A stretch of DNA of 64,000 nucleotides from Arthrobacter jiangjiafuii (lineage in GTDB: Bacteria; Actinomycetota; Actinomycetes; Actinomycetales; Micrococcaceae), in contig NZ_CP076022.1 in the NCBI RefSeq assembly GCF_018622995.1, positions 3,286,001 through 3,350,000 of the forward strand, written 5' to 3'. A program made the translations under genes and the position numbers. The first letter of the stretch is position 1; each line of letters begins with the position of its first letter. The notes beneath the pieces were generated by a model, which had not been told where the DNA came from, made no database searches, and worked only from the letters and a program-made list of their open reading frames with translations. Shown piece after piece: positions 1 through 9,155 of the stretch.

Positions 1-408
1 GACAAGGCCGCGGGCCCCAACGGCTCCATCGACCGTTCCGGCCAGGTGCTGTTCATTGACGCCCGCAACCTGGGCTACATGGTGGACCGTGCCGAGCGTG
101 CTCTGTCCGAGGACGACATCAGCAAGATCGCCAACACCTTCCGCGCCTGGCGCGGCAAGGCTTCCGCGGTCGAATCGGGCCTGGAGTACGACGACGAGCC
201 CGGCTTCTGCTATTCGGCCACCCTCGAGGAAATCAAGGCTGCCGACTATGCCCTGACCCCGGGCCGGTACGTCGGTGCCGCCGCGGTTGAGGATGACGGC
301 GAGCCGATCGAGGAGAAGATCGAGCGGTTGAAGAAGGAACTGTTCGAGCAGTTCGAGGAATCCGACCGGCTCGCCAAGGTTGTGCGCGAGCAGTTGGGGC
401 GGATCTGA
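1..408 (+). CDS. hsdM: Type I restriction-modification N6-adenine methyltransferase subunit, C-terminal part
   Basis: The reading frame is open from the first base of the window, so only the last 135 residues are present. The opening residues include VLFIDARNLG, a hallmark of the C-terminal region of HsdM (N6-DNA methylase, type I). A charged, coiled-coil-like tail follows, with the end reading KVVREQLGRI, as expected for the helices that dock on HsdS. The catalytic NPPF region lies upstream of the window. The TGA stop shares one base with the ATG of hsdS, so translation is probably coupled. HsdM modifies host DNA within the HsdM2S or HsdR2M2S complex. Start unknown because of the window edge. 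Confidence 0.93.
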   Translation, partial: DKAAGPNGSIDRSGQVLFIDARNLGYMVDRAERALSEDDISKIANTFRAWRGKASAVESGLEYDDEPGFCYSATLEEIKAADYALTPGRYVGAAAVEDDGEPIEEKIERLKKELFEQFEESDRLAKVVREQLGRI

Positions 409-1619: not shown

Positions 1620-2642
1620 TTGCCGTACAGTCTCAAAAACCGCTTGGTGATCGGAATAGCGTCGAGTGCGCTCTTTGATCTCACAGAATCAGATGCCTTT
1701 TTTGTCGAAAACGGTGAAGAGGACTATCGCCTTTACCAGGATGAGCGCATAGGTGAAACGCTCGAACCCGGAGACGCATTTCCATTTATTAAAGGCCTGC
1801 TGGGGCTCAATGATCTACGGCCTGGCGACCCGGTTGTGGAAGTGATTGTGCTATCGAAAAATGACCCATCAACTGGACTCCGACTCCTGCGATCAGTCGA
1901 AGCGCACAAGCTGAGTATTTCCAGGGCTGTCTTTACACAAGGCAAGGCACCTGTGGAATACATCGAGGCATTCGACATGTCTCTATTCCTTTCGGGCAAC
2001 CGAAAAGATGTGGACGCAGCAACAGCTCTCGGCTTTCCGGCTGGCCATGTTCTACCGTCGACAGCGAAATACGACGAAAACGATCCAGCCCTCCGCGTTG
2101 CATTTGACTTCGACGGCGTGCTGGGAGGAGATGAGTCGGAGCGGGTTTTCAAGGAATCCGCAGATCTGGCGGAATACCAGAAACATGAAACCGAGAATGT
2201 CGACCGCGCCCTTGACCCGGGCCCGCTCAAGAACTTGCTGGAGGACCTCAACATGATTCAGGAACTTGAGCTGGCAAGGAAGACCGATGAACCGGACTAC
2301 GGTGTGCGGCTCCGTGTTTCTCTAATCACCGCCCGTAGCGCCCCGGCGCACGAGCGTGCTGTTCGAAGCTTGCGAGACTGGGGCGTGACCGTCAACGACG
2401 CCTTCTTCCTCGGCGGTATCGAAAAGTCAAAGGTGCTTGAAGTTCTGCATCCGCATATCTTCTTTGATGACCAGACAACACACCTTGTTCCCTCCTCGTC
2501 ATTCGTCGCAGGCGTGCATGTCCCCTACGGTGTCGCCAACCAAGTGATCAAACAGCCATCGCTGAAACCAAACCACCTTGCCCCAAATGAGAGTCTGACA
2601 ACTGGCAGTCGGACGACCACGGATGGGTCGGAAGAGGAATGA
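1620..2642 (+). CDS. cN-I-type 5'-nucleotidase (HAD fold) inside the hsd operon
   Basis: The 340-residue protein matches the cytosolic 5'-nucleotidase I family (5_nucleotid-type HAD phosphatases). It starts MPYSLKNRLVIGIASSALFD and has all HAD motifs: D163 and D165 in FDFDGV, T237 in LITARS, K269/K271 in GIEKSK, and D283-D284 in FFDDQ. It should therefore be a catalytically competent phosphatase that dephosphorylates nucleoside monophosphates in the cytosol. The TTG start at 1620 follows a GGGGGAA ribosome-binding site. The stop overlaps the hsdR start (ATGA), so the gene is translationally coupled inside the restriction operon, 57 bp after hsdS. Its GC content resembles hsdS rather than hsdR. 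The last 45 residues are a polar tail. A role in defence is inferred from position only. Confidence 0.88.
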   Translation: MPYSLKNRLVIGIASSALFDLTESDAFFVENGEEDYRLYQDERIGETLEPGDAFPFIKGLLGLNDLRPGDPVVEVIVLSKNDPSTGLRLLRSVEAHKLSISRAVFTQGKAPVEYIEAFDMSLFLSGNRKDVDAATALGFPAGHVLPSTAKYDENDPALRVAFDFDGVLGGDESERVFKESADLAEYQKHETENVDRALDPGPLKNLLEDLNMIQELELARKTDEPDYGVRLRVSLITARSAPAHERAVRSLRDWGVTVNDAFFLGGIEKSKVLEVLHPHIFFDDQTTHLVPSSSFVAGVHVPYGVANQVIKQPSLKPNHLAPNESLTTGSRTTTDGSEEE

Positions 2643-5830: not shown

Positions 5831-5957
5831 CTTCCCGCTTCTGGTCCACTCAGTGGCCCGGCAGGTTGTGCCGGGCCACAAGTTTGTCCTGCTCTACGTT
5901 CCCCTTCTGCCTCTCCACCGCGTCAACGCTGACGCGCTGCCCGAAAGATGATTCACC

Positions 5958-7835
5958 TTGCTAGATAAAGAACTGCGCGACAAACTCCAGCCCCTCCTCA
6001 AGGGCCTGATCCCTGCTTCCGACTCCACCGAGACAACAGAAATCGTGGCCGCAAGGCCCTCAGGGCAAGGGCAGCGAACACCGGAGTGGGTCACTCGAGT
6101 CCGTGGCGCTAGCAACGCCCCCGTTCAGAGAATGAGTGACGTGTTGGAGGAGAGGGTCGGCCAAGAGCAGCCCGCCCACGTGCCACCTCAATCGCAAAGC
6201 GACGAACGGAACAATCCGTTTGCCTCGACCATTGATGAGTTGGCGGTGGAGATTGGGGTGCCCATCTCAGACGTTCTGCATGCGGCCGTTCAAGAAGGGC
6301 TGCCTCGCTCAGAGGCACGGCCATCCTTGGCTCTGTACGCCTCCGAGGTAGACATTTTGCTCGGCTTCTTCGCCGAGCGATGGAAGTGGCGACAGGACCA
6401 TCCGATCGAGTACCAACCTTCCGCCGACGGCCGGATCTCCTTCGAGACATATGAACGGATCCGCCTTTCCGAGCGCGAACGCCTGGAAAGAGGAGGTTTC
6501 TTACCTTCACGCAAGCTGATCTCTCGTCAACCGCTGCGCGCATGGCCACAGATATTGCGGCACCAAACGCATGCCAAGAAACAAGTGACATCGGCGGCTC
6601 TCGCCGGCAAGGTTACCCAAATCCCCCCTACGGTGTCCCCCCTTTCAACATCCCGTATGGCGAGGGCCGCAGTCTCCCCTAGCAAGCAACCTCCCGCGAA
6701 CCAAATAAGAGTTACCAGTTCGACCACGCCGCCGAAGAAATTACAGGCCGCGGCAGCGACAAACACGGCTTTGATCCCGCCGAAACCCGCGTCCGTGCTG
6801 CAACTTCAGAATCGGCAAGTTGTCGGACTGATCAATAAGGAGGTGGAGGGTGGACAGCATACCGGGGTGTCTCCCGAACCCGCCTTCCGGACCTATCGCA
6901 CCACCGTCAGTGCTGGTTCCGCCGCGGTTGCAGACCTGCAGGAGACCCTAAGAGAGTTTCATCCGCGAATGTATGCCACATTCTTTGATCAGTTCCGGGA
7001 TGTCTTGGACGTGGACAGGCTGGTCTCGAGGACCATGCGGACAGGGAGGGGATTCTTCGCGACGGACCCGGAGCATGTCCGGATCATCAATGACGTTTGC
7101 GAGTACAGCTACGGGATATTCGCCTATTGGGAGATGGGATCCAAGATCGGCCGAAAGGCCCGGAGCCTTCCACCCCCGTCCACCAATAAGGTCAAATCCG
7201 CTCTGATGAACCTCCGTCCTATGTACAAGGGCGTACTGACGGACCTGTGTCACCGACGTTTTGTTTTCTGGCGGGTTGGAAAGATCTGGGACCTATTAGA
7301 AGTGCGGTTCGACGACGTGCATGACTGGCTGGAGGGCCTGGCCGCCGGAGAATATGTTCCACTCACAACGCACCACATTCCCCTTGGGAATTATCCGAAC
7401 CTTGCCACGTGCGCGAACTTATCTAACCGGGATCACGACATCGTGAAGTTCATGTCGGAAGCCGCACAGAATCTTCGCCAAGGTGTCCGCGGAGTCCGGG
7501 GTAGAAAGGCCACCAATGGTGGTGCCGCGTTGCAGTCTCGAACATCGGGAGCGTCGGCATCGTCAGGGCCGAGGACGCTTGGGTACCGACCGGAGAACAC
7601 CTGGCTGGTCCCGATTACGATCACCGACGGGCATGTCGACACGACCCTTGACGAGGATTTTTTCACCTCGCCGGACGACAAGAAACCACATCAAGTCCGG
7701 TCCTTCTACCGCCGGCCCAAAGGATCCTCGCCCAGCGCTCCTCGAACCGAATTTGTCAGCGGGCACGTCCGAGGAGGACGCGGCGCATTCGCGGACATGA
7801 AGCTGCTCCCGACGGTCACGATCCGTCGCCGTTAA
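5958..7835 (+). CDS. Unrecognised 625-residue protein downstream of hsdR
   Basis: I do not recognise this family. From a TTG start at 5958 the frame encodes 625 residues; an in-frame ATG at 6132 would give a protein about 58 residues shorter. The N-terminal part (to about residue 195) is charged and mostly helical. It contains ELAVEIGVPISDVLHAAV, which looks like a small helix-turn-helix or Rho-N-like helical motif. A Pro/Ser/Thr/Ala-rich linker runs from about 205 to 290. A compact domain rich in Trp, Tyr and Phe follows at about 310-490, then a basic tail (TVTIRRR). There is no signal peptide or membrane segment. It sits 127 bp after hsdR on the same strand. GC is lower than in hsdR. Coding is supported by length and balanced composition; function is unknown. 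Confidence 0.7.
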   Translation: MLDKELRDKLQPLLKGLIPASDSTETTEIVAARPSGQGQRTPEWVTRVRGASNAPVQRMSDVLEERVGQEQPAHVPPQSQSDERNNPFASTIDELAVEIGVPISDVLHAAVQEGLPRSEARPSLALYASEVDILLGFFAERWKWRQDHPIEYQPSADGRISFETYERIRLSERERLERGGFLPSRKLISRQPLRAWPQILRHQTHAKKQVTSAALAGKVTQIPPTVSPLSTSRMARAAVSPSKQPPANQIRVTSSTTPPKKLQAAAATNTALIPPKPASVLQLQNRQVVGLINKEVEGGQHTGVSPEPAFRTYRTTVSAGSAAVADLQETLREFHPRMYATFFDQFRDVLDVDRLVSRTMRTGRGFFATDPEHVRIINDVCEYSYGIFAYWEMGSKIGRKARSLPPPSTNKVKSALMNLRPMYKGVLTDLCHRRFVFWRVGKIWDLLEVRFDDVHDWLEGLAAGEYVPLTTHHIPLGNYPNLATCANLSNRDHDIVKFMSEAAQNLRQGVRGVRGRKATNGGAALQSRTSGASASSGPRTLGYRPENTWLVPITITDGHVDTTLDEDFFTSPDDKKPHQVRSFYRRPKGSSPSAPRTEFVSGHVRGGRGAFADMKLLPTVTIRRR

Positions 7836-7872: not shown

Positions 7873-8580
7873 CTAAGCCACTTCGTCTTCGCTGGACGGC
7901 GCCTTGGCCCCGCCGTCCGTGCCGTTCATCCAGAGCACCACGTCCATCACGCGCAGTTGGGACACCGGGTATGGCACTTCGGCTTGGTCCCGGATGTTGT
8001 CCAGGCGGGTAGCTAACGCTTTACCGTCTTGGGTGAGCATCTCGTGCCAGTCGGTCCACTGCGTCAGGGAGCTCTTTAGACCGATCTCTTCCCCGACCAC
8101 CGAATCCCAGATTGGGATCAGACGCGGACGCTTGCGTGCCATGAGCTTGCTGGCTCGAGTGGGGCCGATGCCCCAGCCGCCGTCTTCCTTGCCGCGGAGA
8201 ATGTTCCAGAGCTTCCACGCAGGGCTTTCCTCGCCCAAATGGGCTTTGAAGTCATCGTGGGTGACATCGGCCAGATCGAGATCAACGGGGATCTCCGTCA
8301 GCAGTGCGGTGATATCAAGTTGGCGCTCGGCAAGCAGGCCAATCACTGCGGCAGGTTCAAAGGGCACGGAAAGGAAAGACGCAGCCAGCATGTCGTCTGC
8401 AGTGATGGCATTGACGACGTCGGGGGCGTCGCCGCCGCCCGCCCATGAATCGAAGCGCGCTCCCGTTCGGACCCGCCCCTTGGAAACAGGCTGCGTGTAG
8501 TAGTCCTTGAGCAATTTTGCCGCTCGGCCAACCTGCTGGTTAGTGAGTATTTCCGGAATCTGCACGTCTTGCCTCCCCAA
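7873..8580 (-). CDS. DUF6308-like protein with a helix-hairpin-helix segment
   Basis: The 235-residue protein resembles the actinobacterial DUF6308 group, a family without a known function. The central part contains GWGIGPTRASKLMARKRPRL followed by IPIWDS. This pattern is like the helix-hairpin-helix of the HhH-GPD DNA glycosylase fold, so DNA contact is possible, but the usual glycosylase catalytic residues are not obvious. The C-terminus has SQLRVMDVVLWMNG and an acidic tail. The gene runs convergently to the unknown 625-residue gene, with 37 bp between stops, and marks the right edge of the restriction block. The family assignment is from memory of conserved motifs and is moderate. Confidence 0.75.
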   Translation of the reverse strand: MGRQDVQIPEILTNQQVGRAAKLLKDYYTQPVSKGRVRTGARFDSWAGGGDAPDVVNAITADDMLAASFLSVPFEPAAVIGLLAERQLDITALLTEIPVDLDLADVTHDDFKAHLGEESPAWKLWNILRGKEDGGWGIGPTRASKLMARKRPRLIPIWDSVVGEEIGLKSSLTQWTDWHEMLTQDGKALATRLDNIRDQAEVPYPVSQLRVMDVVLWMNGTDGGAKAPSSEDEVA

Positions 8581-8621: not shown

Positions 8622-9056
8622 CTATGTGCCGAGAGGAGCTATTTCACCCTGGCTTATCCGGACCACCGGCTGCGAGAGCAGCCGTACGTTCCTGTGATAC
8701 TGAAAATGGCTCTTGACCTGCACAGAGACATCAATGTTCTGCATTTTCCCGCCGCCTGCTTTGAACCCGGTAAGGCCGGCCGCGCACTCTCCTGGCTGAG
8801 TGGCGGCATAGGGGAATTTGAGGACACTGTCATTGACTGAGTGGTAGTTATAGACCGCGTCGTCGACCTTGGCCATCAGGCTGTTCCAGTCGCTCTTGCC
8901 TCCGATGGCGGCCCCCAGAAGGTGCATGGCCTCCACACGCGGGCCATCCTTCTTGCTGGCCAAGGTCTGGGCTGTGACAACCATGGCCCGTGCGCCGAGA
9001 CTGTGCCCAACCAGAATGTAAGAGTCTTCGCTCGTCCGGGCCAGCAGATCCGCCAG
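8622..9056 (-). pseudogene. 5'-truncated alpha/beta hydrolase of the DUF726/TMCO4 type
   Basis: Read on the minus strand, the segment encodes YILVGHSLGARAM, with the serine-hydrolase GxSxG elbow. HLLGAAIGG follows, then a stretch with YNYHSVNDSVLKF that resembles the Asp-containing end of DUF726 (TMCO4-like) hydrolases. The 5' half of the gene is missing: upstream of about 9056 the sequence changes to DoxX homology in more than one frame. The open frame to 9146 is a chance fusion. The 3' end is intact to the stop at 8622. I call it a gene fragment; a short expressed product cannot be excluded. Confidence 0.65.
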
Positions 9057-9155
9057 AGCACCAGCAGCAGCGACTGGAAAAACAGCCGGATCAGCCGGGC
9101 TGATCTCTGCGACACCCGAAAGCAGCACAACGACGTCGTCGCCCACCGGAACCCC
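9057..9155 (-). pseudogene. Decayed DoxX-family gene remnant with an internal deletion
   Basis: The minus strand encodes DDVVVLLSGVAEIS in one frame and LIRLFFQSLLLVLW in another. Both match the intact DoxX-like gene at 33898-34353 (DDVVVLLSGVAEIS and LIRLFFQPLLVLW). By direct alignment 9101-9155 matches 34140-34194 with 7 differences in 55 bases. 9057-9094 matches 33956-33990 with 4 substitutions plus one 3-base insertion. Between the two blocks 143 bp present in the intact gene are missing, which also shifts the frame. The remnant has the same orientation as the intact gene. Confidence 0.75.

Follow-up and report, generated by a model that had tools for sequence, protein, structure and literature searches.

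A cytosolic I-type 5'-nucleotidase as exchangeable cargo in an actinobacterial type I restriction operon

Why should a type I restriction-modification operon carry the gene for a 5'-nucleotidase? The question is raised by a 64,000-nucleotide stretch of the Arthrobacter jiangjiafuii genome (contig NZ_CP076022.1, positions 3,286,001 to 3,350,000; the whole stretch is called the window), in which a gene of the cytosolic 5'-nucleotidase I (cN-I) type lies between hsdS and hsdR of a complete set of hsdM, hsdS and hsdR (Table 1). The nucleotidase is swappable cargo: empty and differently filled versions of its site exist, the operon's nearest relative is without the gene, and members of its family are linked to restriction genes in other bacteria. 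Its probable role is against phage, with nucleoside monophosphates as substrate.

The nucleotidase and its place in the operon

The open reading frame (ORF) begins with TTG, encodes 340 residues and has no internal stops. Residues 1-308 match the Pfam family PF06189 (5-nucleotidase) at E 1e-117, the full-length match covering positions 1-302 of the 302 in the profile with 392.7 bits against a curated cut-off of 28.2. Cytosolic 5'-nucleotidase I, the class of human NT5C1A/NT5C1B, shares this Pfam family and the HAD motifs with the gene described here, which differs in sitting within a restriction operon and in that its substrate activity is a prediction. At E 0.01 there is no other Pfam match and no PADLOC match beside PDC-S08, hence no CARF domain, and no HD or deaminase domain of the dGTPase or dCTP deaminase class was found with Pfam, PADLOC or NCBIfam at the same threshold.

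Six residues (D163, D165, T237, K269, D283 and D284) are invariant in an alignment of 14 family members; from general knowledge of the superfamily we take them to form HAD motifs I to IV. The initial annotation had called the enzyme catalytically complete, with all four HAD motifs intact, and as far as sequence tells this is right because these residues do not vary among the relatives. The gene is also under purifying selection, with a nonsynonymous divergence (dN) of 0.26-0.35 against a synonymous divergence (dS) that is saturated or about 2.5. As judged by profile comparison, the HAD unit is duplicated within the protein, and the N-terminal copy is degenerate: hhalign matches the N half to the C half at E 2.8e-12 with a score of 75.9, while 20 column-shuffled controls gave scores of 11-19. 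In the global alignment of the halves, A14, S16, P111, S125 and G126 of the N half pair with D163, D165, K269, D283 and D284 of the C half. The degenerate copy may be a regulatory or dimerisation module.

By its PADLOC match (PDC-S08, PDLC04900; E 2.4e-129, model positions 15-317 of 323), the nucleotidase is a new member of an already catalogued candidate defence family. PDC-S08 is reportedly a phage defence candidate from the guilt-by-embedding preprint of Payne et al. The match extends over nearly the full length of the model, and the two E. coli copies that were scanned adjoin hsd genes and hit this model as well. PADLOC lists PDC-S08 as a single-gene candidate, description absent; the slot census, the empty site and the internal duplication are added here. 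Entries of the PDC series are candidate defence genes named through "guilt-by-embedding", most of them lacking experimental validation according to PMC12988326 and PMC10855318. Paper searches, which did not reach bioRxiv, found PDC-S08 named in one paper (PMC10855318) and no published test of nucleotide starvation by it.

The nucleotidase gene ends in ...GAGGAATGAGC, where the hsdR ATG (2639-2641) overlaps the nucleotidase TGA (2640-2642) as ATGA. This bears out the earlier claim that the gene stands between hsdS and hsdR with its stop overlapping the next start. On the other side, 57 bases separate it from hsdS, and this gap together with the TTG start means that coupling is tight on the hsdR side only.

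Exchange at the hsdS-hsdR interval

The site without the gene is seen in a genome of the same genus (G011), whose HsdM and HsdR are 96.4% and 91.1% identical to those of the window and whose hsdS and hsdR are 6 bases apart. The DNA of the two operons is 83-85% identical as far as the hsdM end and once more from position 2647 onward; between these points there are two short matches, both within hsdS. Guanine-plus-cytosine (GC) content is 54.9% in hsdS and 54.2% in the nucleotidase gene against 65.4% in hsdM and 66.2% in hsdR, and hsdS of G011 is likewise low at 53.9%. The simplest reading of synteny and base composition is that hsdS and its cargo were replaced together through recombination in the conserved hsdM and hsdR flanks, so that specificity and cargo would change together.

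A census of the HsdM subfamily comprises 36 loci: 34 places from a sample of 396 genomes of the order, with at least 61% identity in the subfamily search (at least 58% when the locus was read; 15 places at 52-56% were excluded), and two loci found via the nucleotidase (L025 and L082). In five loci (L180, L186, L188, L199 and L203), where no hsdS ORF satisfied the rule, the gap length is reckoned from an assumed end. Two loci with no hsdR in the stretch (L190 and L209) were counted as "other", and a third (L030) as a carrier. Slot contents were scanned as hand-picked ORFs, which among the "other" slots came from all except L185 and L186; those of L190, L196, L197 and L198 were scanned with Pfam only.

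Twelve of the 36 slots are empty, with hsdS and hsdR at most 112 bases apart, five hold the nucleotidase, and 19 hold something else or are unassigned; the site is thus empty or otherwise occupied in 31 of 36 loci. The carriers are the window, L025, L181 (the same place as L028), L030 and L082, with extra cargo between the nucleotidase and hsdR in L025 and L181. Defence-type families are matched in 11 of the 19 other slots. In seven of these an ORF reaches E 1e-20 or better against a PADLOC model: PDC-S02/YhcG (L184), AbiD (L195), HEC-09, an NYN protein (L188), PD-Lambda-1 (L199), PD-Lambda-2_B (L206), the GmrSD-type PDC-M55C (L194) and RT_III-A, matched in part by a peptidase (L209). Four contain an SLFN_AlbA_2 protein (L183, L193, L200 and L207). 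The remaining eight hold a GTPase (L189), helix-turn-helix genes (L192 and L197), a lipoprotein (L196), genes with no or only weak matches (L190 and L198) or no convincing ORF (L185 and L186). Two copies of the type I family occur in one genome (G052): L181, with the nucleotidase in a total of 7.8 kilobases (kb) from hsdS to hsdR, and L194, with 11.3 kb of other cargo that includes the GmrSD-like gene.

A required, integral subunit of the restriction enzyme is rejected for the nucleotidase because 12 of the 36 loci have nothing between hsdS and hsdR. The earlier picture of a nucleotidase working as part of the operon stands as regards its position, its intact and selected sequence and a link to restriction across phyla, and is not supported as regards an integral place in the enzyme.

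On the HsdM tree, the five carriers require five changes, and the supported branches alone also force five. Their nucleotidases all fall within one clade of 12 rows (support 100/98), which they share with seven relatives from another genus (g40), near which no restriction genes were seen. The nucleotidase tree leaves out ten rows that carried a stop in the aligned part or had fewer than 260 residues; on it the linkage label requires three changes, of which supported branches force at least two.

Table 1. Features of the restriction operon, in window coordinates
Feature	Position	Strand	Basis
hsdM, 3' end	1..408	+	Full gene taken from the genome: N6_Mtase and HsdM_N
hsdS, specificity subunit, 384 residues	408..1562	+	PF01420 (Methylase_S), E 8.3e-12; PADLOC Specificity_I, 5.8e-48
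cN-I type 5'-nucleotidase, cargo of the hsdS-hsdR slot	1620..2642	+	PF06189; PADLOC PDC-S08
N-terminal half, putative degenerate HAD-like copy, residues 1-152	1620..2075	+	hhalign against the C half
C-terminal half, predicted catalytic HAD domain, residues 153-308	2076..2543	+	The six motif residues named in the text
hsdR, 1063 residues	2639..5830	+	HSDR_N, SWI2_SNF2, T1RH-like_C; TIGR00348, 1.9e-139
Perfect inverted repeat of 11 bases, about 20 bases past the hsdR stop	5853..5879	+	Read from sequence

The whole hsdM encodes 537 residues and starts 1205 bases upstream of the window. The inverted repeat perhaps marks the end of the operon, without a clear T run. Upstream of the window, a gene for a 696-residue protein (L029:5083-7173, plus strand) overlaps the hsdM start; its product matches N6_Mtase marginally and nothing in PADLOC, and may be an accessory pseudo-methyltransferase. 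Whole or partial relatives of it stand upstream of hsdM in 35 of the 36 subfamily loci, the exception being L180. Downstream of hsdR, a 625-residue ORF (5958-7835; GC 59.1%) with no match in Pfam, NCBIfam or PADLOC at E 0.01 precedes a DUF6308 gene (7873-8580, minus strand) and a DUF726 gene, alpha/beta hydrolase-like (8622-9146, minus strand). G011 has about 4 bases in place of the 625-residue ORF, which is a second insertion adjoining the operon. The ORF is matched in 5 of 99 relatives (its own genome included), of which one other is full-length at 67% (G009) and three are partial. The DUF6308 gene is common to the window and G011 (81%), and L027 has a distant relative of it (30%) some 3 kb away from a free-standing nucleotidase.

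Restriction linkage across the family

The PF06189 nucleotidase is a patchy gene. It occurs in 8 of the 99 relatives (the window's genome counted), in one of 29 genomes of the genus, in 37 of the 396 genomes of the order and, at E 0.001, in 11 of 396 genomes of the phylum, nine of them above the cut-off. Embedding in a type I operon, as the initial annotation had it, is accordingly a description of this lineage and not of the family, with 28 other genomes of the genus lacking the gene.

The same gene does recur beside hsd genes elsewhere, contrary to the outcome that the initial annotation said would refute its claim. The order hsdM-hsdS-nucleotidase-hsdR is found again in Mycolicibacterium peregrinum (L082), type ISP restriction enzymes lie near the nucleotidase in L026, L212 and L119 (a Prescottella equi plasmid; 5 of 46 plasmid records were opened), and the linkage extends across phyla to E. 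coli. Of 5426 complete E. coli genomes, 96 contain DNA related to L121, a member of the family carried on a plasmid. Fifteen chromosomal loci were chosen by hand from 30 rows over 97 records, short matches being excluded, and 13 of them adjoin annotated hsdM and hsdS (one hsdS is frameshifted); of the two without intact hsd genes, one lies beside hsd fragments and one has none in its 7-kb flanks. In nine loci the order is hsdR-hsdM-hsdS-cargo-nucleotidase followed by an integrase or its remnant, and the seven of these that show a tRNA have tRNA-Leu, tRNA-Sec or tRNA-Phe nearby. The cargo between hsdS and the nucleotidase in this arrangement includes Dsr1, SIR2, a PDC-M01 ATPase-HNH pair, a carbon-nitrogen hydrolase and unknown genes. 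Laboratory strain E. coli W (L230) has hsdR-M-S together with other cargo and the PDC-S08 gene. In the other four loci, at several chromosomal sites, the nucleotidase faces hsdR-hsdS-hsdM. Within each arrangement the loci are near copies and therefore represent two lineages, not 13 events. In these facing loci the nucleotidase is preceded by a 325-residue protein (L242:5967-6944), matched by neither Pfam nor PADLOC, which is a possible partner.

A chance insertion unlinked to restriction is not favoured, because the link recurs in such unrelated settings. Co-occurrence across whole genomes was dropped as evidence: among the 396 genomes of the order sample, the HsdM subfamily is present in 33 and PF06189 in 37, and five have both where about three are expected by chance; what stands out is that the genes are adjacent in three of the five. 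Relatives of the nucleotidase with 38-41% identity are also encoded on two short phage-labelled records (4.2-4.5 kb) obtained from human stool (H47 and H48; MT839165 and MT839593) and on a 1.5-kb cyanophage fragment (H49, phage AS-1).

Possible functions

The reading favoured here, to which we give about an even chance, is that the nucleotidase is interchangeable accessory cargo of the cN-I/PDC-S08 type in an actinobacterial type I operon and acts against phage. The nucleotidase would be co-expressed with the restriction enzyme, would dephosphorylate nucleoside or deoxynucleoside monophosphates during infection, and would leave fewer nucleotides to a phage that escapes restriction. Both halves of this proposal have precedents by analogy. 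For the position, a defence island bearing DarTG2 between hsdS and hsdR of E. coli acts against phages, and its authors term the interval a potential recombination hotspot (PMC12255303); a second defence gene in the same type I slot is the likeness, whereas DarTG2 is a toxin-antitoxin pair, and the phage tests concerned the whole island. For the chemistry, the Chp proteins, CARF-HAD phosphatase effectors of type III-A CRISPR systems, block phage and deplete ATP and IMP (PMC12715507). They share the HAD fold class and nucleotide substrates in immunity with what is proposed here, and differ in having a CARF sensor, membrane helices and a cyclic tetra-adenylate trigger, while the nucleotidase has no CARF match.

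Several observations weigh against an anti-phage role tied to restriction. A reference-genome search confirmed at least 581 relatives, and among the best 80 chromosomal ones that were kept, an hsd set is within reach in one, the M. peregrinum locus; several of these contigs do not span the 10-kb flank, which means that linkage can be missed. In the order sample, a panel of restriction proteins was applied to 27 of the 37 nucleotidase places, 5 of which are linked, three to this hsd set and two to type ISP enzymes. Genus g40 carries the gene in 17 sample genomes, and the 10 loci read show neither hsd nor ISP genes and thus look like ordinary metabolism. Much of the family looks free-standing, most members read lying outside restriction operons. 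Within the subfamily, the nucleotidase follows hsdS at 3 of the 34 order-sample places, the window among the three; two of the five embedded cases (L025 and L082) were recruited via nucleotidase searches, and the contig of a third (L030) ends before hsdR. PDC-S08 was split evenly between resistant and susceptible strains among 100 of Pseudomonas aeruginosa (PMC10855318), and point changes in the HAD motifs of Chp barely affected immunity (PMC12715507).

The leading alternative is a metabolic passenger or salvage enzyme, an ordinary nucleotidase trapped in a recombination-prone site that would serve nucleotide homeostasis or the recycling of nucleotides from degraded DNA, with no direct anti-phage effect. 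It remains a serious explanation because most family members read are free-standing, and both the lack of the gene in the other genomes of the genus and slot genes that do not look like defence, such as the lipoprotein, fit it. Linkage to restriction across distant lineages and at several sites on the E. coli chromosome, the defence-type families in more than half of the other slots and the constraint on the nucleotidase sequence argue against it, and it is considered appreciably less probable than a role against phage.

An unlikely alternative is that the nucleotidase serves as a counter-counter-defence: it would dephosphorylate the modified deoxynucleoside monophosphates with which phages protect their DNA from restriction, and so leave that DNA open to cleavage by the restriction enzyme of the operon. 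It is at the monophosphate level, where this enzyme class acts, that phages such as T4 make hydroxymethyl-dCMP. The E. coli phosphatase YjjG clears non-canonical nucleotides (PMC12715507), and a function of this kind would account for a gene that travels with restriction genes; free-standing members with no restriction genes alongside, and unrelated cargo in the same slots, speak against it. If it were true, PDC-S08 would be a "restriction enabler" that repeatedly accompanies type I and type ISP enzymes for this reason, and the degenerate N-terminal HAD copy would be a sensor for the modified base. A DNA-end enzyme, whose HAD domain would strip 3' phosphates or otherwise process the ends made by restriction, is very improbable.

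The locus turns the PDC-S08 catalogue entry into a testable case, since members of one operon family carry the nucleotidase, other cargo or nothing at the same site. What is new is this natural comparison set, the association of the family with type ISP enzymes and with type I systems of E. coli, and the predicted tandem HAD architecture. The view of the hsdS-hsdR interval as an accessory defence site, in print for E. coli (PMC12255303), is extended to Actinomycetota, and if the nucleotidase does protect, removal of nucleotide monophosphates would be a layer of defence coupled to restriction.
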